Shown here: piece by piece, positions 555 through 60,400 of the stretch
Numbering within the stretch: position 1 is the stretch's first letter
How the letters are laid out: every line of letters starts with the position of its first letter
Assembly (NCBI GenBank): GCA_026874595.1
Contig: CM049308.1
Span: 17,110,001-17,174,000, forward strand
DNA length: 64,000 nucleotides
Source of the DNA: Sipunculus nudus
Taxonomy: Eukaryota > Annelida > Sipuncula > Golfingiida > Sipunculidae
Direction of reading: 5' to 3'
Made by a program: the position numbers and the translations under genes
Notes under the pieces: model-generated
The model's input: the letters and a program-made list of their open reading frames with translations, nothing else
Told to the model about the DNA's origin: nothing
The model's database searches: none

Positions 555-21196
<20,642 letters not shown>

Positions 21197-32016: not shown

Positions 32017-33949
32017 TCCCACTGCCACTTATACGCGTATTATTAATTATTGATGGAGTGTTGGATCTACCGCTACAGACTCACATTATTTCAAACATAT
32101 GATTCTGTTCCAGAGAAGTGAGAAAACATCATACAAAGAACCAGGAAGGTCACAGGGTTATTCCACTTGTGATCGACAACAAATGTAGCAAATTGCCTTT
32201 TTTCTGATCCATCGGCAGTGACATTTCGAGACAATAAGTGCAACCTAAATCAAAAGTGTAACGACATTATTATTACATCTTAGACTGAAGCCGCATGGAA
32301 TCACCATGAAATTAACTGAGACACACACTTCATGTCGCTTCAGTGTTTTGTCCTGTTTGTTCTGGCAATTTAAATAGCAGGGGGATGAGGATTTAAGTGG
32401 GGGGGGGGGGGGGGGGCGGCCTTGTCATATAAAGAGGGGCGTTGAAACGTTTGTTAAAAATTCAGGCTGTGACGGTGTATTTCAAAGCCCAGTGCCGTGA
32501 TAGCCATACATATATGCGGCTTCCTTAAACAAAAGGACAGATGACTTCAGTCTTAAGCCGAGTTTCGTTGCCCGACTCGGCTTGTAAAATGTCTGCTGGC
32601 TAAACCAGGCCTGACAGCTTATTCATTTGATGATTCAACAAAGTATCCGTTTTATTTAAACCAGTTATCTATATTACGCGTGACAAATTTTAACCATTTA
32701 ACATTTAACTAGTTTGTGATTACATATCGAGTAAGGTTTATCATGGTGGTTTTATAAGCCAATATTTTCATAATCACATTTTTAGGGATGTCACGCATGA
32801 CTATGTATATTAATGTATATATAACTTAAACTTTGTCAGTCAGCTTCAACATCGACCAAGCTAACTTAACAAATCGTCCGGACCCCCCCCCCTCCACTTT
32901 TTCAGCCGCCGCAACCTTTTTAAAGGGTTTCAGTCCAATTTATCCGACCTGTAACACTCCCCCTTTTCTGGAAGTGGGGACCATTTTCTAGGCTTTGACA
33001 TAAGGGATCCTGGGTTGGACCCGTCCTTTTCACAAATCCTGGATCCTCCCCTGCAAACCACGGAGTCAAGGTCGTGTTCACTGATCTTCACAGTGCTAGT
33101 CAAGATGCACACGAACCTGCATGATTCACGACAAATCAACAAATGATTAAATGAGGCGTTTCCCCCAAGAAAAGTTGCAAACACGTTATAGCTTCAGATG
33201 CAATGGATCATCATCTTGAGGTGCCCTGAATGCCACGGGCAACATGGCAGCTCATACCGGAAATAAGGGTAGCCGTAACAACCCGACTCAGTGGACAATG
33301 GTAATTGGGCTGGTATGCTTACTTGAGGTGTAATACAAGCAATATCAAGGAATGCATCGGAACGGTCTTTATTAATGTCGCATTTATATTGTGGTTAACA
33401 GCCCATCATTTTAACATTTTGCTACGAATCATGAATTAACACAAGAGAATACATGTAAACTCAAAACCCAAACTGAACTGAACTCTATATTCATGCGGTC
33501 AGAAATTCAACAAACATACCGATGGGTTAAAACGGAACTTTCCTCGCTCATGTTTTGTGTTGTTAGAAAGTATACTAAAATTCTAATGATTAGTCTGGTT
33601 TATGTCGATATATAAAGTGTACCTGTAGGCCATGTGACGTTGTAAAAAATTACAAAAATATTAGCATATATTGTCTTCCTCAGTCCTAGATGTAAAGGCA
33701 CTATGACAGCTATAATCTGTTCTTAATGTCAGAGGGCCGCTATCGGCCGTTACCAAAGCAAAGAGTGTGCTCAAGAACCCTTGAACTTATACTAATGGTT
33801 AATCTTTCCCCGAGATAAGTACTTCCTGCGGCAAAAGAATTCGACGACATAGCTCCTTCATTTAAACCAATCTGGAAGAATCAAGGGGAATAGAAAGAGT
33901 TGCTTTCATCAATTCGTAGCACATTCAGCGGACCAATGTGACTGAAATC

Positions 33950-34068
33950 TATCTAATCTATCTTATCTATCTAATCTATCTGTCTGTCTGTCTGTCTATC
34001 TATCTACCTAATCGAATCCAATCTAATCTAGTCTAATCTAATGTAATCAAATCTAATCTAATCTAATC

Positions 34069-34106
<38 letters not shown>

Positions 34107-34135
34107 CTCTCTCTATCTATCTATCTAATCTTATT
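33950..34135. repeat. (TCTA)n / (TCTG)n / (TAATC)n-type microsatellite in unit A
   Basis: Mixed TATC, TGTC and TAATC repeats; the counterpart in unit B lies at about 42556-42690. Confidence 0.9.
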
Positions 34136-34240
34136 TATTTAATTAGGAAAGCCCATTCAGCTTTATACTGTTTTCCAGTTGGGTCCTCTTACAATTGCAT
34201 ATCTATCTATCTATCTACCCCTCCTTCTCGCTAGCTCTTC

Positions 34241-34242
<2 letters not shown>

Positions 34243-34297
<55 letters not shown>
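34243..34297. repeat. (CT)n(TA)n compound microsatellite in unit A
   Basis: CT run passing into TA run. The same junction occurs in unit B at about 42778-42842. Confidence 0.95.
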
Positions 34298-34299
<2 letters not shown>

Positions 34300-36356
34300 C
34301 CTTCCACTGCCATTCACACGCGTATTGTTATTGATGAAGCGGTTGATCTACAGCAACAGACTCACATTATATCAAACATATGATTCGGTTCCACAGAAGC
34401 GAGAGAACGTTATACAGAGAACCAGGAAGGTCACAGGATTCTTCCACTTGTGAGCCAGAACAAATGTAGCAAATTTCCTTTTTTCTGACCGCACAGGCAG
34501 TGACATTTCGAGACAATAAATGGAACTTTAATCAAAAGTGTAACGACTTAATTATTACACATTAAACTGAAGCCGCATGGAACCACCATACGTATGTACT
34601 CAACTGAGTCACATACTTCATTCGCATCAGTGTTTTGTTATGTTTTAGCACCCATTAAAGCTTCGTCAGGCCTAAATGCACGGTGTCGTGCTGAGAGTGC
34701 AAATCAATAAATTATTAAAATAAACTCCAATACTGTTCATGCTCGTGGCGAATGTTGGAGTATTTCTTGATTGCATCTATCAAATTCATCTAGTGTTGTA
34801 CGCATTGCGCTTAGATGATGAAGATGTTTTAATATATATGAATGATTGTTCAATTATAATATTGATTAAACCACCAACGATTGCAACAGAATTTTTTTTT
34901 GTATGTGGCTCCCAGGCAGCCGTCTTTACAGTTTGTTTACATAATTTCTTGATTTAATTTAATGTAACATCTCTTTCTAGAGACAAGCACATAGACGACA
35001 ACATTCCTTGGAGTTGCAAATGGCAATAACCAGATTATTAGCAAAGTAATTATGTATTTTGCGATTGATCATCAAAATTAAATTATGTCCAATAAACAGA
35101 CACCAATAACTAAAATCCACTAAAATTGTAACAATAGACCAGAGAGATCCGCAAGAGTTTGATTAAAATTTATGCAATTTCAACACGTTATATATTTTGA
35201 ATACCTTTTCATACAAAAGCATAAATTTCCGATTCATTGCTTCCGCCAGGGGAGTATGCAACCTATCCCATTCGTGTATGTGTGTATTGTTGTGTTAGTG
35301 TGGGTGTTTGTGTTTTTGTTTCCCAACATTAGTCATGCAATCTCCTTTAATTTTCAGGACATTTCGGAAATAGGCCAAGAAAGAATAGATGAAATTTAGG
35401 TGTTCTTCCAGCATCTTCTACGGATTCTGAAGTGTCATCAGGGAATATTCACAAACGCACGGTCATTTATGTACGAATATACAGGAAATATTGGCCAAAA
35501 AATAAGTTAATGCACAGAAGGTCCAGTCCCATTAGTGTCCCCGGCCGCCTGTTCAGTTCACGGTCGAGCACCCAAAATTTTGGAGTGGCCGTGACCACTG
35601 TGTTCTCAGTTCGGTTTTGAAAATTGTGCTGCCATGACAGAGATATGTATCCATTACGATGCAGATTCTTGGTTCCTTGATGAGCTGATTTGAAAATTGA
35701 TATGCGAGTTGATCATAGATATCTTTTTCAATTGTGTGATATCGGTGGTACCATCTTAATTCTTTTCTTATTTAGCCTTTTTATTGTTTATGATTAGACT
35801 GACAAATATATATATCAGTCATGTCACAGTCGGGTTAGCTCACCAATTATTTATTTAACTGATCATCAAATTATGTGATAATGTAGTTTAAGTAGACATT
35901 TATATTTCTCTCAATGTACGAAGTCTGAAAAAGTGTGAACAAACTTTTGAATATTAGACCCTAATGTCACAGGTAAAACTTGTCAGCTGAATATTTCTCT
36001 CTTGGACAACCTGTACATGTAAGTTGAAAGTCTACGGGTTTATTAATAGGATACAAACTCTACATATACATGTATGTCCCTCATCACTAAAGAAAAAAAA
36101 TTTAGACTTTGGTGTGTATGTTGCCACAACGGGAACATCCTTAACGATTATTCGTCAGAAGGGTCAAGGTCACAGGTTAATGTCTGATATAATTTCAGAT
36201 GAGGAACCCTTAGTGATAATTTATGTGATCCAGTATTCATATTTATGGGTCCAAATGATAAATTAGTTAAAAAATGCACATTAGTATCACCCTAATCCTA
36301 AAAGAATCCATTGATTTATGGTTAAAATTCAAGGTCATAGATCACATTTGATGTTT

Positions 36357-38680: not shown

Positions 38681-39780
38681 AGGGGGGGGGGGGGGGTTTG
38701 TCATATATAGAGGGCCGTTGAAACGTTTGTTAAAAATTCAGGCTGTGACGTGTATTTTAAAGCCCAGTGCCGTGTTAGCCATACATATATGCGGCTTGCT
38801 TAAACAAAAGGACAGATGACTTCAGTCATAAGCCGAGTTTCGTTGCCCGACTCGGCTTGTAAAATGTCTGCTGGCTAAACCAGGCCTGACAGCTTATTCA
38901 TTTGATGATTCAACAAAGTATCCGTTTTATTTAAACCAGTTATCTATATTACGCGTGACATTTTAACGATTTTACATTTAACTTTTTTGTGATAAAATAT
39001 CGAGTAAGGTTTAATAAGCCAATATTTTCATAATCACATTTTAGGGATGTCACGCTTGACCATGTATATTAATGTATATATAACTTAAACTTTGTCAGTC
39101 AGCTTCAACATCCACAAAGCTAACTTAACGGATCGTCCGGACCCCCCCCCCCCTCCACTTTTTAGCCGCCGCAACCTTTTTTAAGGGTTTCAGTCCAATT
39201 TATCCGACCTGTAACACTCCCCTTTTCTGGAAGTGGGGACCATTTTCTAGGCTTTGACATAAGGGATCCTGGGTTGGACCCGTCCTTTTCTCAAATCCTG
39301 TATCCTCCCCTGCAAACCACGGAGTCAAGGTCGTGTTCACTGATCTTCACAGTGCTAGTCAAGATGCACACGAACCTCATGATTCACGACAAATCAACAA
39401 ATGATTAAATGAGGCGTTTCCCTCAAGAAAAGTCGCAAAAACGTAGTAGCTTCAGATGCAGTGAATTATGAGATCTTGAGGTGCCCTGAATGCCATGAAA
39501 GGCAACATGGCAGCTTATGCCGGAAATAAGGGTAGCCGTAACAACCCGACTCAGTGAACAATGGTAATTGGGCTGGTATGCTTACTTGAGGTGTAATACA
39601 AGCAATATCAAGTAATGCATCGGAACGGTCTTTCTTAATATTGCATTTATATTGTGGTTAACAGGCCATCATCTTAACAATATTGCTACGAATCATGAAT
39701 TAAAACTAAAGAATACATGTAAACTCAAAACCCAAACTGAAATAAAACTCTATATTCATGCGGTCAGAAATTTAACAAAC

Positions 39781-40982
39781 GGTAATCGTGCAAAGTAACA
39801 GACCCATATTTCTCTCTCAAACAAATAAGTGTGACCATATTTCACTAAAAATTTTTTTTTGCATGACAAAGTTGACGATCCGGCGCATCTAATGATATCA
39901 TATTTTTGTATATTATTTAATTATTTATTTTGCTACAAACTGTCGAAAAAGGGTAGTTTGCCGAAAATATTCAAAATGACGTCGAGTCAAAGACGTTCTG
40001 AGCCGACGTCATGAATCCACAGTAATATACATATATACCATGTTAAACATTTAGATGATGTCTTATAAAAATTATCATTCAATATATAATATTATGCATA
40101 TATGTTTTTACTTTTTTTACCTCTATTTTTCAACATTTCACTTGATTTACGTATGTATTAGTTATAATTAATGACACTATTAAGGTGTGATCTCTTTTAT
40201 TAATGGTGTGACCACATATATTAGTTAGGAAATAGTAAATAAAATGTGGTGTAACCACATTTAAATATATTCTTACATCATCATATCCCTGATTTTTTTC
40301 TATATTCAATCCGATTTTTTTTTCAAACCAAGGGACCATATTTTTTACCAATGAAAAATTATATGTGACCAGCTTTTATTTGACCAGCCATACAAGTTTG
40401 TATTATATAAATAATATTATAAAATCTGGTCACATATGGTGTGACCACTTCTTTTTACCAATACATATTGACAAAATAAACTGTGACCACATTTTATTTG
40501 ACCAGCCTAATAAGTTCGTATTATATATAAAATATTATAAAATCTGGTCACATATGGCGTGACAACATTTTTTACCAATAAACATTGACAAAAATAAGGT
40601 GTGACCACATTTTATTTGACCAGTCCTATAAGTTTGTATTATATATATAATATTATACAATGTGGTCACATATTGTGTGACCACTTTTTTTTCAATAAAT
40701 ATTGACAAAAATAAGGTGTGACCACATTTTATTTGACCAGCCATATATGTTTGTATTATATATAATATTATAAAATATGGTCACATAAGGTGTGAAAATA
40801 ATTTTTACAAAAAATATTAACAAAAATAAGGTGTGACTACATATTATTTGACCAGTCATATAAGTTTTTATTATATATATAATATTATAAAATATGGTCA
40901 CATATGGTGTGACCACATTTTCCACCCATGAATATTGACAAAAATAAGGTGTGACCACATTTTGATCAGCCATATGAGTTTG

Positions 40983-41057
<75 letters not shown>

Positions 41058-42005
41058 GAAATGTGATCACATATGGTGTGACCAAATTTTTTACAATAAA
41101 TATTGACAAAAATAAGGTATAACCACATTTTATTTGACCAGCCATATATGTTTGTATTATATATATATATGATATTATAAAATATGGTCACATATGGCGT
41201 GACCACATTTTTTACCAATAAATATTAACAAAAATAAGGTGTGACCACATTTCATTTGACCAGCCATATAAGTTTGTATTATATATATATATATATTATT
41301 ATAAAATTAGGTCACATATGGATGATATGCCCAACATGGTCCCGTGTATGTCCTGCGTTCGTCTCGATTTTAAGGGCTACCGGTCTGTTACTCATGGGGA
41401 GGGGATGTTCCCATCCGATTGTCTTTACATAAAGTAGTCTAACAGAAAAAAAATAATAAGATAAATGACATGTCTAAAATGTAGTCTTTATACTCTGTCC
41501 ACAAAAAATGACTGTTTATTACACCATTTATATTTATTTGACATAAAAAACGTACATAGAGATAAAGCTGAATACAGCGAGAGTTAACGTGATCAGTCGA
41601 ATACATTCACAGAAGACAGTTGCATGTTTATGTTTTGTATTAAATTTGGGGAAATATGGATATTTAGAGGTAAAATTGTCCCTCGCTCTATGCATAAAAA
41701 GATATATTGACTGTAATTTTTGTCAGACATCATCCTTTTGTTTAACATGGTATGCACGTACATTACTGTAGATTCATGACGTCGGCTGAGAACGTCTATG
41801 ACACGACGTCATTTTGGGTATTTTCAACAAACTTCCCTTTTTTGATAGTTTGTAGCAAAATATATTTATATCAAACTTACAAAAATATTGTATCATTAGA
41901 TGCGCTGGATCTTCAACCTTAACATGAAATAATTTTTTCATTGAAATGTGGTCACACTTTTTTGTGAGACCATGTAAGATGGGTCCGTCACTTTGCGCGA
42001 TTACC
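39781..42005. mobile_element. 2.2-kb non-autonomous DNA transposon with about 245-bp TIRs and an internal satellite
   Basis: The left end GGTAATCGTGCAAAGTAACA and the right end on the opposite strand GGTAATCGCGCAAAGTGACG start inverted repeats that can be followed for about 245 bases (39781 to about 40030, and about 41758-42005). Shared blocks include gcgcatctaatgata, ttttgctacaaact and agccgacgtcatgaat. The flank taacaaac on the left appears on the right as taacaacaaac, consistent with an 8-bp target duplication plus a small slip. Unit A has the intact site near 33505. No transposase is encoded. Long TIRs with an 8-bp duplication suggest a MULE-, P- or hAT-type mover, but the class is not settled. 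Confidence 0.85.
40355..41310. repeat. Internal satellite of the TIR element, about 117-bp units, eight copies
   Basis: The phrase ttatttgaccagcc recurs near 40379, 40498, 40617, 40734, 40849, 40962, 41133 and 41257. Each unit also has aggtgtgaccacat and ggtcacatatggtgtgacca, so GTGACC boxes occur in both orientations. The longer sixth interval comes from a TA expansion at 40986-41054. Confidence 0.88.
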
Positions 42006-42186
42006 TAACAACAAACATACCGAGGGGTTTACCATTATGTTGAGTTGAACGGAACTTTCCTCGCTCCTGTTTGGTGTTTTAAGAAAATATACTAAAATGC
42101 TAACGATTAGTCTGGTTTATGTCGATTGAAAGTGTACCTGTAGGCCATGTGGCGTTGTAAAAAAATTAACAAAATATTTGCATATA

Positions 42187-42363
42187 CAGGGGCGGATCCA
42201 GGATTTAGGAAAAAAGGGGGGGGGGGTCCAATCCAGGAGGACAGTGATAACCCTAAAAAAAGGTCCTCAGGTCTGAAAAAGGGGGGTCCAGGCGGCAAAC
42301 CTTTGTCTGAAGCCCTTAAAAAACGTTGTTTCTGATGAGAAAAAAAAAGGGGGGGGGGGGTCA
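42187..42363. mobile_element. hAT-like foldback element fragment, copy 1
   Basis: Starts CAGGGGCGGATCCAGGATTT and matches the longer copy at 48885-49092 through gaccctaaaaaaaggt-type and cttaaaaaa-gttgtttctg text. The right terminus is missing. It is absent from the matching point of unit A (near 33664). Confidence 0.7.
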
Positions 42364-42777
42364 GGTAGCTAGTAATCTGGTCTTAATGTCAGAGGGCTTA
42401 TACTAATGGTTAATCTTTCCCCGAGATAAGTACTATGTCATCGAAAATAATTCGATGACATAGCTCCATCACTTAAACCAATCTTGAAGAATCAAGGGGA
42501 ATAGAAAGAGTTGCTTTCATCTATTCGTAGCACATTCAGCGGACCAATGTGACAGTAATCTATCTAATCTATCTAATCTATCTGTCTGTCTGTCTGTCTA
42601 TATAATCTAATCCAATCTAATCTAGTCTTATCTAATGTAATCAAATATAATCTAATCTAATCTTATCTATCTATATATCTTATATGTTTATTTTATCAGG
42701 AAAGCCCATTCAGCTTAATGCTGTTTTCAGTTGGGTCCTCTTACAATTGCATATCTATCTATCTATCTATCTATCTA

Positions 42778-42843
<66 letters not shown>

Positions 42844-43675
42844 GGCCTTCCACTGCCATTTACACGAGTATTGTTATTGATGGAGTGTTGAACCTACCGC
42901 TACAGACTCACATTATATCAAACATATGATTCGGTTCAACAGAAGCGAGCGAACGTTATACAAAGAACCAGGAAGGTCACAGGGTTATTCCACTTGTGAG
43001 CGAGAACAAATGTAGCAAATTTCCTTTTTTTCTGATGCATCGGCAGTGACATTTCGAGTCAATAAATGCAACTTAAATCAAAAGTGTAACGACATATTTA
43101 TTACACCTTAGACTGAAGCAGCTTGAAATCACCAAAAGTATGTAATCAACTGAGTCACACAATTCATGTCGCATCAGTGTTTTGTTCTGTTTTTGCACCC
43201 ATTGAAGCTACGTCAGGCCTTAATGCACGGTGTCGTGCTGAGAGTGCAAATCAATAAATTATTAATTTAAACTCCAATATCGTTCATGATCGTGGCGAAT
43301 GTTAGAGTATTTCTTGATTGCATCTATCCAAGTCATCTAGTGTTGTTCGCATTGCGCTTAGATGATGAAGATGTTTCAATATATCTATTATCGTTCAATT
43401 ATAATATTAATTAAACCACCAACGATTGCAACAGATTTTTTTTTCGCTTGTGGCCCTCAGGCAGCCATCTTTACAGTTGGTTAAGGTAATTTCTGGTTTT
43501 TCTTTTAATGTAACATCTCTTTCTAGAGACAAGCACGTAGACGACAGCATTCCTTTGAGTTTACAAATGGCAATAACCAGATTATAAGCAAAGTAATTAT
43601 GTATTTTGCGATTGATCATCAACCTGAAATTATGTCCAATAATCAGACATCAATAACTAAAATCAACTCTACCTT

Positions 43676-43890
43676 GTAAAGGTAAAGGTAACGTTGAGGG
43701 TTTTTATAGTCTGATATCACCGACGATGTCAGTCTCATCCGACTTTGCCTTCCTGGTCTTTCGGGCCTGTTCATTCTTGTAGCTTTTCTCGGCTACCTGG
43801 GGAGCATACAACCCAAGCTGCCATATCAGGCGCATGAGGGTTATTTGTTCTACATTTGCCTTCCTCCCATGAACAGTAAGTGTAACAAGA
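43676..43890. repeat. Unidentified insertion in unit B
   Basis: About 215 bases more GC-rich than the surroundings, between 'caataactaaaatc' and 'caagaatagacca', which are almost adjacent in unit A (near 35110-35140). No terminal repeats recognised. Confidence 0.5.
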
Positions 43891-45062
43891 ATAGACCACA
43901 AAGATCAGCAAGAGTATGACTAACAATAATCTAATTTCAACATGCGGTATATTTTGAGTACCTTTTCATACAAAATTATAAATTTCCGAATTATTGCTTT
44001 CGCAAGGAGAGTATGCAATCTATCCCATTCGTGTGTGTATATGTGTGTTTTTGTGTTTACCCCAACATAAGTCACGCAATCTCATTAAATTTTCAATGCA
44101 TTTCGGGAATAGGGCAAGAAAGAATAGATAACATCTTCTACGGAATCTGAAGCGTTATCAAGGACTATTCACAAACGCACGGTTATTTATGCACGTATAA
44201 ACCTGGAATTATTGGCCAAAAATTAAGTTAATGCAGAGAGGTCTAGACTCATCAGTGTCTCCGGCCGCCTGTTAAGTTCACGTCTGAGCGCCCAAAATTT
44301 CGGAGTGGCGGTGTCCACTGTGTTCTCAGTTTGGTTTTGAATATTATGCTGCCATGGAGGAGATATATATCCATTTGGATGCAGATTCCTGGTTCATGAG
44401 TGAGCAGATTTTAAAATTTATATGAGAGTAGATCATAGATATATTTTATCAATATGATATCGATGGTACCACATAAATATTCTTATCTTTTTGGCCTCTT
44501 TATTGGTTATGATTAGACTGGCAAATATATATGTCATGTCTCAGTTGTGTTAGCTCACCAATTATTTATTTTGCAACTGATCATTAAGTTATGTGATAAT
44601 GTAGTTTAAGTAGAGATTTATATTTCTCTCAGTGCACAAAGTCTTAAAAAAGTGTGAACAAAGTTGTAAATATTAGACCTTAATATCACAGGTCATACTT
44701 GTCAGCTGAGTATTTCTCTCTTGGACAACCTGCTCATGTAAGTTGAAAGTATTTGGGTTTATTAAGGGATTTAAGCTTTACATATGAATGTCCCTCATCA
44801 CTAAAGAAAATTCCTTTCGACTTTGGTGTGTGTGTTGCCAGAACAGGAACATCCTTAACGATTATTCGATTGAAAGATCGAGGTTACAGGTTAATGTCTG
44901 ATATATATTCAGATTAGGAACCCTTAGGGATGATTTATGCACTGCAATACTCATTTATGGGTCCAAATGATTAATTAGTTAAAAATGCATATTTGTATCA
45001 CTCTGTTCCCAAAAGAATCCATTGATTTAGGGGTAAAAACTCAAGGTCATAGATCATTACAT

Positions 45063-51400: not shown

Positions 51401-54400
51401 AATTATTACCCGTTATAGCGATTGATACTTGTACTGATACATGAATGCGTTAGCCCTGTTGTAAGCAGGTTTTCAAATATTTTCTTTTATAGACTGGAGT
51501 GTCTATTAATGTCTCATGGTTTCACATACATCAAATCTTCTTTAAATCAGAATTATCATAAAACATATATTACACATAACATGAATAAAATTTCTTCAAT
51601 ACCTGATGATATTGAAATTTTATCGGTAGTGATATCCTGAAGGCATGGGAATGATGTGGGATAAAATAACCCCAGAAAAGTTTTAAAATTGGTATTATCA
51701 TATAAATCGCAAATAATATATCGGACAGATTATGGTAGGATATCAAAATGAAACATTACCCATTGGTCAGTTGGTCTTCTGGTCATTGATATAATAATTT
51801 AAGTATCTTGCTTTTTTTGCCTTGGAGAGATGGGTTAACTCGATCACCCTCACACTAGACACCACATGCTTTCTTGCGGGACCAATTAAAACGTGAGCAA
51901 CAAAAGTACAGAGACAACGGCGATATGAATGGTAACACTGGTTTTATTTGTCCTCAGTTATGTCGAAGAGAGTATTTGGAAGTTGCATAAAAATTTAGGC
52001 CAACAGAGAAAGGAGATAACGGTAAGGTCTCTAGAATTCGATAAAATAGCAAGTGACCCATGGGTAATGACGCTCAGCTGACTGGGAAGAGATTCGCAAA
52101 AGGAAATTTTATCATCTGAATGGTAGCTAGTATATACCAATTCAACTAAAGCATCAAACAGATTAACCAACAGGCCAAGATTGTGACAGTATTTATATAT
52201 CTCAAAAATAGAGAAAAAAATGCATTAACTTTAAAAAAATTACAGGTGGTTCAACCAGTCTGCAGAAACTAATAAAAAGACTTAATGGTCAATATCCATG
52301 CAAAGAATCATGGTGATCTCTGCATACTTCAGAGTCCTATAGCATGAAGGATATTGGTAACAGAGACCTAATTTCAGGTTTCCACAGACACTATTCATGG
52401 GCCTCCTTGCATGACAAGAATGAAGATTCTAGGTCCAGTTGTTATGATTTCTGCCCTGTTAACAGATGTTCATATCTTTAAAGGTCTCAAAAATAGAGAA
52501 AAAAATCGTAAAAAACCCAAACAAATACAGGTGGTGCCACCAGTCTGCAGAAACTGATGAAACACTCCATGATCAAAATTTTCCATTATTCTGAGCTGTA
52601 CTTTGGAGTGCCATAGCTCAAAGGATATGTGTAACAGAGACCTAATTTCAGGTTTCCATGGAGACTTTTCATGGGTCTCCTTGTGTATCAAGAATGAAGA
52701 TTCTAGGTCCAGTCGTTACGATTAGTACCCTGTTGACAGATAACTACATCCTTAAAGGTCTCATAAATAGAGAAAAAAATTTATAAAAATTTGAAAATAA
52801 ATACAGGTGGCGCCACTTGTCTACAGGAACTGATGGAACACCTCTTGATGAATATATCTGCCAAAAATCATGACCATCAGTGTTGTAGTAATTTAGATGT
52901 TGCAGTTTGTTTTTATCAAATTTTCCATTATTCTGGGAGGGGGGGGGGGGGTAATTGGGAGCCCCAACATTCAAAGGATATGGGTAACAGAGACCTTCTT
53001 TCAGGTTTCCATTGAGACTTTTCATAGGTCTCTCACTATGTCAAGAATGAAGATTCTAGGTCCAGTCTTTACGATTTGTGCCATGTTGACAGATGTTCAC
53101 AAAGGTCTCAAAAATAGAGATAACAATTCGTAAAAAATCGTAAAATACAGGTGGCGCCACCTGTCTGCAGAAACTGATGAAACATCTCATGATCAATATG
53201 TATGCAAAAAATAATAACCATCAGTGATGTAGTTTATGAGATATTGAAGTTTTTGTATAAAATTTTTGACTATTCTGGGGGGTACTTTGGGGCCCCATAG
53301 CTCGAAGGATATGAGTAACAGAGACCTGATTTCTGGTTTCCTTGGAGATTTTTCATAGACCTCTCAGAATTTCAAGTTACAAGATTCTAGGTCCAGCGGT
53401 TACGATATGTGCCAGGTTTACGTACGGACGGACAGACAGACGGACGACGGACAAAGAGTGATCGCTATAGCTCAGATGAATTACAGTCAGCTGAGCTAAA
53501 GATTGACCACAACAACAACTACGGAGTCAGAGAAAAAAGTACGAGGGATAAATATTTTATTAATCTAAACAATATGTGAAAAATTTTTCCTTTACCCTTA
53601 GTCTGTACTTCAGAATGATGGATTAAGTGTTTGAGAAACATGAGCACATCAGCCGAAAAAGAGCAGAGGATCCAGGACTGCACTCAATTTGATCCACATT
53701 TGATCTAAAACTTTTGCTCTGTCGATGGTTTTAAATTTAAAATGTTCATTGAAATAATGGGGAATTATTCGGTGATATTGTTAATTTAAACAAAGCGACA
53801 TACTAAAAAAATATCCATACTGTTTTTTACAATTTCAGTTAACCATCTTCATCAAGGAAGGTTACGAGATCGTCTTATACACAAAAGCAAACACTCACAA
53901 AAATGATCCTCCATGTAAGCGCCCGCGCCCTGCGGTCCGAACAATTCATCAAGTAGAGGAAAGAGGTTGGCGGCCACGCTGCACTTGTTCAATTCACAAT
54001 CGGGGTAATTGCGGATAATGATGCCAACCAGGCGATTCCTTTTGAACACTGGGGCTCCGCAGTCACCAAAACACGTGGCTTGTTTTGGCACAGTCGTCAA
54101 CATACAGATGTTCTTCTTTCCGTCAGCTGTTATAGTAGTAATGCCATTACAGCACGTGTTAACCCCACTCCATTTCATTTGCGCCGCTTGCAACATTAAT
54201 GCATAAGTTTCAGGTGACATCGATGTCATCCCCCATCCACTCAGCATAACAGGTTCATCCAACGTAGGTACGTCTCTTCTTGAACATGTCAGAAGTACCG
54301 GTTTACAGGTAGACAACTCATAACCTCTTTCGATGATTATTATTGCCACCTCTTTATTCTTTGTATATCTTACTTCTTTTACTGTTCCTTCTGCGGTTTT

Positions 54401-57400
54401 TGAGGGACCGCTGTACAGTCTGAAATAACATAAGTATAGGTAAAATGCGTGAAAAAAGAATGTTTTGCGCGGTGCCTCATTTATAACACGGAACATGTTT
54501 ATGATACCAAATATCTCAGGTAGGTGTGATAGTCTACCAAAAATAAGGGTGAACCCGGGACAAATTGCAACAGAAATTAAACCAACTGTATCTTTCTCTT
54601 ATCTTAAAAAATCTATAGAATAAAATATTAAAAGTTCCAAAAAGTCCCATGGGGGAAAATAATTGATTTTGATTATTTCACTTGGCTAAATAACGATTAA
54701 CCTTTACTTGCGTTTTACTATGAGTGACCACTCATTTGAAAGATCTCTTCATGGCCTGTCTATTGAATCTGATTCAAATGTAAATCTACCAATAATAAGG
54801 ATTTTACGTATATTGACAGGGGCAGGGCTGGACAATAGCACTTGACCAAGGGGTTGGGAATATAACTTGCTCCACTGTCTGATATTGCCGGCTGGGTCTA
54901 CGATATACTAATATCAGACCATGCCCTTGACAAAGCCCAAGGGAATATCACATACAGCATAATTCAAATAGAAAGAGGAGCAGAGTATGTTTTATATCAC
55001 GAGATGTATCATGAGGGATATATAGGGTTATCAACATCAGGGAATATTTAGCATTTAAATGGTATTAATTGTAATTTAACATTTGGAACCTAGGATATCA
55101 TCCCCTTGATATTTTATATTTATTATTCCCGTGAATGCATAAGAATAGATAACTCTAACGTTATATTTAAAGTGTAATAAAATATGTCATCCTCAAGTAT
55201 CTCATGCCGTGATGAAAGACTCGGTCAATGCTTTACTGTAACCACCGGTTAAAAAAAAAAAAAACAAAAAAAAAAAACTAAGGGTTTCTGGCAAAAAGTT
55301 ACTTAATTCATATTCTTGCTGACACGTACGTACCAGCACAAGCATGGAGCTCAATATTCTGTACATTAAGGCGGAGTTCATACATTAAAGAACTAGAATG
55401 GCTTTGTTTTTGCAGTGCAAAAACAGATATATGTCTCCCCCTATGGGCCATCCAAAAACATTAGGGGTAAAATATGCACTATCACAAAATACTGATTATA
55501 GATTTCAGCAGATTTGACCTTGAAGGTAAAGGTCAACACTTTTTGAGCTCCGATGATATTTTGGCAGAAAGAACTGGTGTGTCAAATTTGAGAACAAAAT
55601 GTGAAATACTTCAAAAGTAAAAAAAAAAAATACATTTCGGAAGATTTGCCTTTGAAGATGAAGGTCAAGGTCACCCAGTTTCGATATCCTTTGAGTTTGT
55701 TGCAGGAACAATGAGTGTTTAAAATTTTGGAGGAAAATATGTAACCCATCAAAAGTTACCGCGTTCACAAGACAATAACTATAATTCGGCCGATTTAACC
55801 TTGAAGATCCCGGTCAAGGTCACTTGGTGTCAAACACCTCTGAGAACTTGGTAGGAACAATTGGTGTACCTTATTTGAGGACAAAGTGATAAATACCTGA
55901 AAATTTATGAGGTTCAAAACAATTTTATATTTCGTCAGTTTGACCTTGAAGATTAAGATCAAGGTCATCCGCTTTCGAATTCGTCCGAGATTTTGGTAAG
56001 GAGAATGAGTTTTGAAAATTTTTGGGGAAAATATGTAGCCCTTCAAATGTTATCGCGTTCACAGAGAATCACTAAAATTCGGCCGATTTGACCTAGAAGA
56101 TCCCGGTCAAAGCCACTCGGTTTCGAACATCCTGGAAAATTGGTAGGAACAATTGGTGTTCTTAATTTAAGGACAAAATGATAAATACCTAAAAAGTTAT
56201 GATGTTCACAAAACGTTTACATTTCTGCAGATTTGACCTTACTAATAAAGATCAAGGTCACCCGGTTTTGAACTCGTCCGAGATTTTGATAGGGACGAGT
56301 GTTGAAAATATTTCGGGAAAATATGTAGCCCTTCAAACGTTATCGCGTCCACAAGACAATCACTAAAATTCGGCAGCTGACCTTGCCCGATGAAGATCCC
56401 GGTCAAGGTCACTCGGTTTCGAACACCTCTGAGAACTTGGTAGGAACAATTGGTGTACCTTATTTGAGGACAAAATGATAAATACTTCAAAAGTTTTGAT
56501 GTTCACAAAAAGTTCACATTTCGGCGGATTTGACATCAAGGTGAATGTCATGGTCACCGGGTTTCAAACTGGTCCGAGCACTGGATAGTAAGAATTGGTG
56601 TACTAAAATTGAGGACAACACGTAAAAAACTTCAAAAGTTATGCGGTTCACAAAAATTTTATATTTCGGCAGATTTGACCTAGAAGATGAAGGTCAAGGT
56701 CAATCGTTCTCGAACTCTTCCGATTTTTTTATAGGGACAATGTGTGGTTAATTAATTCGGGGAAAATATGTTGCCCTTCAAAAGTTATCGCGTTCACAAG
56801 AGAATCACTAAAATTCGGCCGATGACCTTGCCCGATGAAGATCCCGGTCAATGTCATACGGTTTCGAACATCTCTGAGAACTTGGTAGAAACAATTGGTG
56901 TTCCAAATTTGAGGACGAAATGATGAATACCTCAAAAGTTATGATGTTCACAAAACGTTTACATTTCGGCAGATTTGACCTTAAAGATGAAGATCGAGGT
57001 CACCCGGTTTCGAATTCGTCCGTGATTTTGATAGGGACAATGAGTGTTGAAAATATTTGGGGAAAATATGTAGCCCTTCAAACGTTGTCGCGTTCGCAAG
57101 ACAATAACTAAAACTCGGCCGATGACCCTGCCCGATGAAGATACCGGTCAAGGTCACTCGGTTTCGAACACCTCTGAGAACTTGGTAGGAATAATTGCTG
57201 TACCAAAATTGAGGACAAAATGATAAATATTTCAAAAGTTATGAGGTTCACAAAAAGTTCACATTTCGGTGGATTTGACCTTAAGGTGAATATCATGGTA
57301 ACCGGGTTTCAAACTGGTCCCACCACTGGATAGTAACAATTGGTGTACCAAAATTGAGGACAAAATGTAAAAAACTTCAAATGTTATGGGGTTCACAAGA

Positions 57401-60400
57401 AGTTCACATTTCGGTGGATTTGACCTTTAGGTGGATGTCATGGTAACCGGGTTTCAAACTGGTCCCACCACTGGATAGTAACAATTGGTGTACCAAATTG
57501 AGGACAAAATGTAAAAAACTTCAAAAGTTATGGGGTTCACAAAAATTTATATTTCGGCAAATTTGACCTTGAAGATGAAGGTCAAGGTCACCGAGTTTAG
57601 AACTCCGACGAGATTTTTGGATGAACAAAGCGTGTTGAAAGATTTGGAGGAAATTATGCAGCCCTTCAAAAGTTATCGTGTTCACAAGATTTCCTACAGA
57701 CGACAACGACTGACGACGTCAGACGACGAAAAGAAGATGGCACTGAAAACGTCTCCCCTTGGTGGGTGGGGGGGGGGGGGGAGACATAATGACTATAATG
57801 AACACCATTTATATGATACCCATTTAAACGTTCAATCACGTTTTAATAAATTGTGATTTAATATATGGAACCATGGTAATTTTCAACTTAGGAAGTTGCA
57901 AAAAATTAGGAATCTGGTCAAATCAATAAGAAATTTTAATAACCTTCCAGACCACATTGACCACAAGCAAACAGGACAAAGGAATAACATTACTTGTACT
58001 TTTAAATCTCTCTGATTTTTACCAACAAATTTTACGCAGTCAGGGCTCCCAATTCAAATTTTAAAGTAAATTAAACAAATGGAAAAAAAACCAGGATAAC
58101 AGATTTGGATACATATGGATTTTTACACCTTTAAATTTAATCAAGGGACTTAATAATATATGTATGAATAGGTAGCGAATATAGCGATGATTTTTTGCAT
58201 TGTTGATTAAAATTTTTACATATGCATATGCAAAGAAGTCATATTATCAAGAAAATAATAATCTCATCGTGAGTTATGAGATATATATCGACTTTCTCTC
58301 TCTTATCAAAGCGGTATATTGTTATATTTATCGTGAAGCATACCGCCAAAGAATATTTGGAAGTACAATCTTGCAACGTTCAAAAGGTATGTATTACATA
58401 TCTTGCAATTGTTTCAATAAGCAGGTTCATTGCTGCTTTAGTAAAGTATTTTCATTCATGAGACATTTTCAATACTTTGAAAGCTGCATGTATGTGCAAA
58501 TTATCCTCGAACAAGTGCTGAAACAAATCAATGGGAAAAAATAATGGAATCCACATGGTATAATAAAGCTGAGTTACTACAAAATGCTTTTGTGACTCAG
58601 GGGTAGAGCGAAGGACTCAAAACCGGGAGATCGTGGGTTCGAATGTCAGCCGAGGAGGTGAGGTTTTTCACGATCTGCCCCCATCAAGGATGAGCGCTCT
58701 TAAGGCTTAATTAATGGCAAGGCTGTCCTCACATACGAGTGCGTCTTTGGGTGTTTCCTCGGTGTTATGAAGCAGCAATGGGAATGATTACACACCCCGG
58801 ACCCGCAGGTGCGGTAGAAATCGGGCCTGGGTGACACCTGGATACAAAATAAAAATGAAAGGAAGCGAATGCTACCGCCCTGTCAAGTCGTCCCAAACCG
58901 AAATGGAAACTCTGCAGATGTACAATCTTAGGTTAAGAATTAGGTAAGACAACATATAAAAATTGGAGGCGGTTACCTCCACCAAAAATAATAAAAAAAA
59001 AATGAAAATATCTTATTTTATGTTACAGCTAAGATACAAGATTCCCTCCAGGTTGGACTGTGGAAATATCTGCTTTGAATATAAATTATAATCTGAGGGT
59101 AACACAACCTTATGTGGAGCCTGATATTTCAATTTTACAGTGAGCATTCCCTTTTTGATAAGAAAAATCTAACAGGAAGACATAAACTGAGACATCAGCT
59201 GAAATCAATCTGGGGCATGGTGTATCGTATATTGCAATGAGGGTTGATCGAGAGTTGTCCACAGGTGATCCTGATCAGTAAAGAAAGATTGAAATCGAGA
59301 TTGACAAAAAAGGTACCAGAAATGAAAAAAAAAAACAAAAACGTACGAACAAAACATATCACGTGAAAATACCAACAAGTTATACCTGTTATGTACATGG
59401 GCACTGAATTCGAGTTCCTGATTTGATATATTCTGTCGCATGTCGAGTGTAAACAGTAGACAGATGGACAGGCATACTGGGAGGATAAATTATTTTCAAA
59501 ATTTACTCTTCGCATATTTACTGACGAGTAAGTGAATATAATACATGCAAGATTGGTCTACTGTTGCAGTGCCATACAATTAATTTAAGTCTTTACCCAT
59601 AATGTTGATTCAATACAGTCTATGCAACAAGGCAGATGTATAAATTAATCATGCTTGGATTCATAATATTTGGATTTATCACTGAATAAATGACAAAATA
59701 ATGTAGACTTTCCTTTTCCCGCTTAACAATTCCTTAGGGCCAGAGTAACGTTTCAGAAAAAATAAGAAATTAACATAATTGTGCAATTGAATGAATTATA
59801 ATTAGAATTCTGTAAGTTAGCTATCTTAGATTATATTCATTTCTTGCTGTATCAAATGCGTCTTAAAGAATACAGACACCTGGCACCTGACATTGACTAG
59901 ACTGTATAACACTTCTGATATCGGGCCATTACGGTCTCTCCAGGTCAGTACTCCGCTGATTTTTACATTAACTTTCTCAAAACAAAATCCACGGAGAAGC
60001 AAACCACTGGAACCTAAAGTGACGGCAGAAAATCAAATATGACGTAAAATAGGAATTTCTCGACGCACCATCCCCCTTATTATGATCAAAATCGCAGGCT
60101 GAACTAGGGAATACGAAAAGTTTCTCACCAAATCAGACAGTGCCTTAAATGTCGAACTTCTGCGCTTTCCACCCTTATTTCTTTTATCATTTTAAAATTT
60201 TATTTCATATAAATTGTTGAATTGTACAAAGACCGGTAATTATAGCAACTGATTCACGCTCAGTCTGTTATCTAAGGCTCGTATGAAGGCATTCGGCCGT
60301 CTGTATATGTGTGAAAACAATAGAAAACAACCCATAGCAAAAAACGCTCATTGGCATGCAAGGAATCGAATCCGGATCATAAAATCCAACTTTCGAGAGC

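Follow-up and report, generated by a model that had tools for sequence, protein, structure and literature searches.

A 2225-bp segment of the Sipunculus nudus genome, located at positions 39781 to 42005 of the window (the 64,000-nucleotide stretch of contig CM049308.1 analysed here), belongs to a family that is very probably a non-autonomous, cut-and-paste class II transposon with terminal inverted repeats (TIRs), carrying a satellite as cargo and mobilised by a transposase acting in trans. The main interest of the family is that this satellite repeats a motif from the element's own ends. The combination of long TIRs, a duplication held constant at 8 bp and empty sites is expected of cut-and-paste DNA transposons. 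In the present family, the TIRs define many copies, the target-site duplication has a fixed length and empty sites were recovered, with one copy (L027) behaving irregularly. The window segment is a real element rather than a chance arrangement: its ends mark 306 sites genome-wide, compared with none for the control.

Structure of the Window Copy

The element was delimited by its TIRs and by matches to the rest of the family, and was annotated without strand. Self-alignment placed the left TIR at 39781 to 40105 on the plus strand and the right TIR at 41681 to 42005 on the minus strand; both begin with GGTAATCG, the right one when read on the minus strand. Aligned with each other (39781-40100 versus 42005-41689), the two repeats were 81% identical over 324 alignment columns, and their outer limits fell exactly at 39781 and 42005. 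An earlier note, made from the sequence alone, had described TIRs of about 245 bp; the repeats are real and their ends exact, but they are longer than proposed, with 324 columns in this copy.

The interior contains a satellite array on the plus strand at 40364 to 41321, identified by monomer matches and comprising about eight to nine monomers, which agrees with the eight copies of a roughly 117-bp unit reported in the earlier note. Monomer spacing was 115 to 122 bp, except for one monomer interrupted by an expanded TA microsatellite (40986 to 41054). GTGACC boxes, also pointed out previously for the interior, occur at high density inside the element. The 13-nt box TGTGACCACATTT, considered below, was located in the left TIR at 39830 to 39842 (plus strand, one mismatch) and in the right TIR at 41944 to 41956 (minus strand). 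At 40152..40153, the window copy lacks about 185 bp that other copies have in the inner part of the left end; family matches split here (query positions 372/373) into two pieces separated by about 185 bp.

The window contains further repeats and coding regions. A tandem array with a unit of about 145 bp rich in AAGGTCAAGGTCA occupies 55634 to 57689 in about 13 copies. A 353-bp tandem repeat lies at 52575 to 53418, and the same repeat is the landing site of two family copies, L019 and L022, on other contigs. Open frames at 5858-6229, 16364-16843, 17713-18057 and 53852-54496 correspond to VWD, EGF, chitin-binding peritrophin-A (CBM_14) and trypsin domains.

Stability of the Two End Types

Left and right ends constitute two stable types that are 87% alike. 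Every copy was 92-99% identical to its own end type, with the exception of the right end of L045 (71.5%). Since the two types are stable across copies, the 81% identity between the TIRs of the window copy is mostly older than its insertion. Four further copies that were aligned had TIRs of about 404 bp, compared to 324 bp in the window copy, and an additional block of about 35 bp matched beyond the ~404-bp TIR in three of these four. The right end of L032 was 93.3% identical to the left type and 93.0% to the right type, and the corresponding values for L035 were 92.6% and 92.0%; judging by these identities, both right ends look like the product of partial conversion between ends.

Genome-Wide Distribution and Transposition Signature

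The assembly searched comprises 1,426,538,692 bases (1.43 Gb) in 153 contigs, with the window on contig C3. A query with the whole element returned 306 matching pieces among the best 40 of 319 candidates, and single-end queries yielded 387 candidates for the left end and 358 for the right end, with the best 40 scored in each case. The terminal 27-mer, allowing up to 2 mismatches, occurred 152 times in forward and 154 times in reverse orientation, 306 times in total, while the control, in which the pattern was reversed, gave 0 and 0. The family thus defined comprises about 150 copies, a figure that excludes more diverged ends.

We fetched 39 loci, 33 of which had both ends recognisable and, together with the window copy, formed a set of 34. 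Six loci (L017, L020, L028, L044, L046 and L047) were left out because one intact recognisable end was missing in the fetched stretch, and L045, with its poorly matching right end, was counted for duplications and excluded from dating. Another 11 loci served for end and array checks only and stand outside the duplication count. Copy length ranged from 1432 to 5725 bp in the set of 34, and the terminal sequence GGTAATCG...CGATTACC was repeated across the fetched copies with rare base changes. A pair of facing ends 928 bp apart (C6:54525862-54526789) is too short for the usual array and is perhaps a miniature derivative.

Duplications of 8 bp abutting the ends were exact in 28 of the 34 copies and carried one mismatch in four; the window copy had two mismatches, and L027 had no duplication. 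When the comparison was offset by 1 to 5 bases as a control, an exact match was obtained in none of the 34 copies. The earlier note had left open whether the TIRs define copies elsewhere, and these duplications in nearly all tested copies, along with the 306 terminal 27-mers, demonstrate that they do.

Joining the two flanks of each copy produced a match spanning the junction in the fetched sequence for 8 of 34 copies, and seven of these were aligned. Read-through with one target copy, or nearly so, was observed for the window copy, L014, L019, L022, L036 and L037; the alignment of L014 displays the right side only, and its initial match spans both sides. L014 and L036 had inserted into tandem repeats, the empty site being a neighbouring unit, and L019 and L022 into the 353-bp repeat that is also found in the window. 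The junction-spanning match of L040 was weak (70%) and falls outside the seven aligned. Against this pattern stand the imperfect duplication of the window copy and L027, which lacks a duplication altogether and whose two related sites are longer at the junction by 7 and 14 bases.

Empty Site in a Paralogous Unit

The window copy lies in unit B of two tandem paralogous units (A, 32404-36344; B, 38682-45056). Both flanks of the element are present without it in unit A at 32404 to 33670 (plus strand), a segment whose homologous stretches in unit B are 38682-39780 and 42048-42186. Flank comparison identified the left target-site duplication as TAACAAAC at 39773 to 39780 and, under the 8-bp rule of the family, the right one as TAACAACA at 42006 to 42013, with two mismatches between them. 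Alternatively, the right duplication may be CAACAAAC at 42009-42016, which leaves three extra bases past the element end. Unit A carries a single copy of CAACAAAC at 33508 to 33515 and is 3 bp shorter than a strict 8-bp reconstruction of the pre-insertion site. Slippage would be easy in the short AAC-rich stretch at this site and may account for the 3-bp excess. Within this 3-bp ambiguity, unit A is the empty site, and the paralogous empty site recognised in the earlier note is borne out by both flanks, the single CAACAAAC and the absence of any element remnant.

The single target copy in unit A favours insertion of the element after the A/B duplication, and parsimony, which is not proof, suggests that unit A never carried the element rather than losing it cleanly. 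The opposite order, in which the element predates the duplication and was lost from unit A through recombination between target duplications or clean excision, appears quite unlikely. What speaks for it is the divergence of the window copy, the highest among 33 dated copies: its K2P distance to the family ends was 0.069 (median of the dated copies 0.022, lowest 0.012), above the pairwise divergence of the left A/B flanks taken alone (0.052). Against this, unit A has one target copy and no trace of the element, the right A/B flanks differ by 0.11-0.17, so that the duplication may be old enough, and the same empty-site pattern was found for other copies at unrelated places. Divergence dating itself was tried and rejected as arbiter of the order, with 0.069 for the element standing between the left and right values of the flanks. 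The uneven divergence of the two units across the insertion point hints at gene conversion.

Dispersal and Turnover of the Satellite

The monomer length was 117-118 bp, and individual copies contained 3 to 37 monomer hits. Identities were calculated from 386 near-full-length monomers, shorter pieces having been dropped. Mean identity was 91.0% for monomers from the same copy and 90.8% for monomers from different copies; compared across copies, first monomers were 93.4% identical and last monomers 93.2%. The nearest relative of a monomer lay in the same copy in 88.9 of 386 cases, compared with 14.3 expected. The similar identity within and between copies, combined with this excess of same-copy nearest relatives, indicates that the source element already contained a varied set of monomers, that their order was passed on to the copies, and that partial local re-amplification followed. 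The data support the conclusion that the satellite array moves along with the element and that its copy number is altered afterwards.

A query with the satellite only gave 235 candidate regions, and 14 of the best 40, which were scored, lay in the window or the first 39 loci. Among the remaining 26 arrays, at least one element end was found at 18, and seven were on contigs C10 and above, outside the comparison; the exact-end pattern comparison covered the first 100 ends, all on C1-C9. The 18 end-bearing arrays included 11 on C1-C9 (one of them assigned by an end from the right-end search), two on C15 and C16, and five from the left-end search or the additional loci. The longest array among the additional loci was about 5.4 kb.

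These counts bear on whether the satellite first spread as free arrays, with the flanking inverted repeats being incidental, which we consider very improbable. The satellite is widespread, with 235 candidate regions (best 40 scored), and array C9:50730949 had no end within 7 kb among the ends listed. Free spread is nevertheless at odds with the 18 of 26 outside arrays that bear at least one element end, and with the duplications, which adjoin the TIRs and not the arrays. The earlier note had suggested that such an element can seed satellite DNA across the genome. With 18 of the 26 outside arrays bearing ends, seeding is demonstrated only in the form of short arrays within elements: spread as element-borne arrays is upheld, and the existence of free 117-bp arrays was not established.

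A 13-nt Box Shared by the Ends and the Satellite

Box TGTGACCACATTT lies near base 50 of each consensus end, and the consensus monomer contains three copies of it, two of which form an inverted pair 5 bases apart. With up to one mismatch allowed, 33 of the 34 left ends and 33 of the 34 right ends contained the box in their outermost 80 nt. At the same threshold it occurred 1459 times in 106,881 bp of elements, with 12 to 97 boxes per copy, compared with 0 in 131,184 bp of flanks. Box positions were less variable than the rest of the monomer (0.034 versus 0.063); of the 117 circular placements, 5 reached this value, counting the true one. Beyond the box, similarity between TIR and monomer was modest; for either end, 3 out of 1000 shuffles were at least as similar, the two ends not being independent of each other.

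From its position and recurrence, we read TGTGACCACATTT as a putative transposase-binding site. Alternatively, the putative protein that targets it may be a host DNA-binding protein instead of the transposase. Whether the satellite itself could be an amplified array of the transposon's own putative recognition site is rather doubtful, although the distribution of the box allows the suggestion to be made.

Search for a Transposase and Superfamily Assignment

ATG-initiated frames of the 34 copies reached at most 137 aa, on the minus strand, and consequently the transposase must be supplied from elsewhere. The earlier note had proposed a search for a transposase with matching TIRs; no autonomous partner with the same ends was found when 131 MULE-domain and 34 P-type (THAP9-like) matches in the genome were compared with 168 listed ends, nor among the candidate loci. 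L048 and L053, left ends without satellite, proved to be fragments of the left end that run on into different sequence. L044, L046 and L047 contain large non-satellite stretches and no stop-to-stop frame longer than 136 aa. A 9.1-kb pair of facing ends (C5:63656917 / C5:63666013) had no frame longer than 108 aa in 1.3 kb sampled in its middle. A 38-codon open frame in the right inner region was also rejected as a transposase remnant; it is short, and the region partly matches the inverted left inner region in three of the four aligned copies.

An 8-bp target duplication is typical of the hAT superfamily, and this is the length observed in the family. We also weighed two other assignments. The family may be of the foldback or Mutator type (MULE, Rehavkus-like) and owe its mobility to a MULE transposase, which we regard as possible, if short of probable. 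Long TIRs agree with this assignment, and MULE-domain sequences are abundant in the genome (131 matches); the consulted part of PMC6446971 gives MULE duplications of 8-11 bp and a minisatellite before the 3' TIR of Rehavkus. The same text gives 9 bp for the duplications of Rehavkus, in contrast to 8 bp here. Furthermore, of the 131 matches, only one was situated 12 kb or less from any of the 168 listed ends, and this match was external to the element in question; the commonest MULE-domain family had no such TIR in the 1 kb upstream of one copy. A non-autonomous element of the P superfamily, similar to Galileo, seems unlikely. Galileo, as portrayed in the portion of PMC4168063 used here, combines long TIRs with 7-8-bp duplications, and one of its D. 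willistoni copies has TIR tandem repeats of about 140 bp; P-type transposase sequences do exist in the genome (34 matches). However, the P-type match closest to any of the 168 listed ends was 93 kb away, so that all 34 fell beyond the 12-kb limit, and the Galileo target consensus GTATTAC given in that portion (PMC4168063) was not evident at family sites.

Two of the sequences encountered in this search have features of their own. The 39 matches of one MULE-domain family, exemplified by C10:17575435, all scored 47.6 bits; an open frame of 607 aa was present in 34 of these, and the family is apparently recent. In L053 (C1:4170901-4174900), the left-end fragment is followed by frames that appear leucine-rich-repeat-like by eye and then by a 58-bp tandem array.

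Comparison with Known Elements

Transposons with tandem repeats are already known, and the present family looks like a new example. DTC84 of Donax, which Satovic and Plohl reportedly described in 2013 among bivalve MITE-like elements with tandem repeats, is similar in being of the tandem-repeat MITE type, a likeness by mention only. Helitrons and Helentrons produce no target duplication and have no long TIRs; both features are present in our family. In Crassostrea, the sections consulted on the Helentron-borne satellites Cg_HINE and Pearl describe satellite-like arrays dispersed by a non-autonomous rolling-circle element (PMC7492417). Dispersal of arrays by a non-autonomous element is common to both systems, whereas the TIRs and 8-bp duplications found here indicate a mechanism different from rolling-circle transposition.

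Other comparable elements have long TIRs. Tetris, a foldback element of Drosophila virilis, is described in the consulted part of its report as non-autonomous, with duplications of 8-9 bp (9-10 bp in rearranged copies) and long TIRs that contain a variable number of tandem repeats, each about 220 bp long; these repeats also form kb-size satellite-like arrays (PMC4079207). Our family is likewise non-autonomous, with long TIRs, a similar duplication length and tandem repeats of variable number. In contrast to the repeats within the TIRs of Tetris, it has one array of single orientation between the TIRs, and free arrays comparable to the kb-size ones were not established here. Rehavkus, according to the portion of the source covered, has TIRs of up to 400 bp, an internal minisatellite and a transposase with a PHD finger (PMC6446971); long TIRs and a tandem repeat inside the element are shared, while the 9-bp duplications and PHD-finger transposase differ from the 8 bp and lack of a long frame in our family. 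Galileo, a member of the P superfamily, resembles the family in its long TIRs, duplication length and tandem repeats, but its target site is different, and in the D. willistoni case given in the consulted text the repeats sit inside the TIRs (PMC4168063), not between them as here. In the accessible parts of the tandem-repeat transposon literature searched, where elements were compared by description and not by sequence, no described element with these ends was found.

Proposed Mechanism and Implications

We propose that a transposase made elsewhere recognises both long terminal repeats, and that the element would then be excised and inserted at a new staggered cut of 8 bp, in a cut-and-paste manner. 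The staggered cut would become the 8-bp target duplication. The internal 117-bp satellite would travel as cargo, and its copy number may shift in place by unequal exchange or slippage. In this proposal, the 13-nt box of the TIRs and monomers would represent a putative transposase-binding site amplified into the satellite.

The family offers a clean case of satellite dispersal by an element whose TIRs, target duplications and empty sites are all documented. Its dozens of comparable copies allow the size, order and turnover of arrays to be followed from one copy to the next. It also advises caution, as dispersed satellite arrays may be transposon interiors. The growth of a satellite from a transposon's own recognition motif is thereby made testable. 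If this origin were true, the array could raise the element's chance of mobilisation or titrate the transposase, and the satellite would be maintained and homogenised by element-level selection, so that satellite DNA within a transposon would have arisen selectively.
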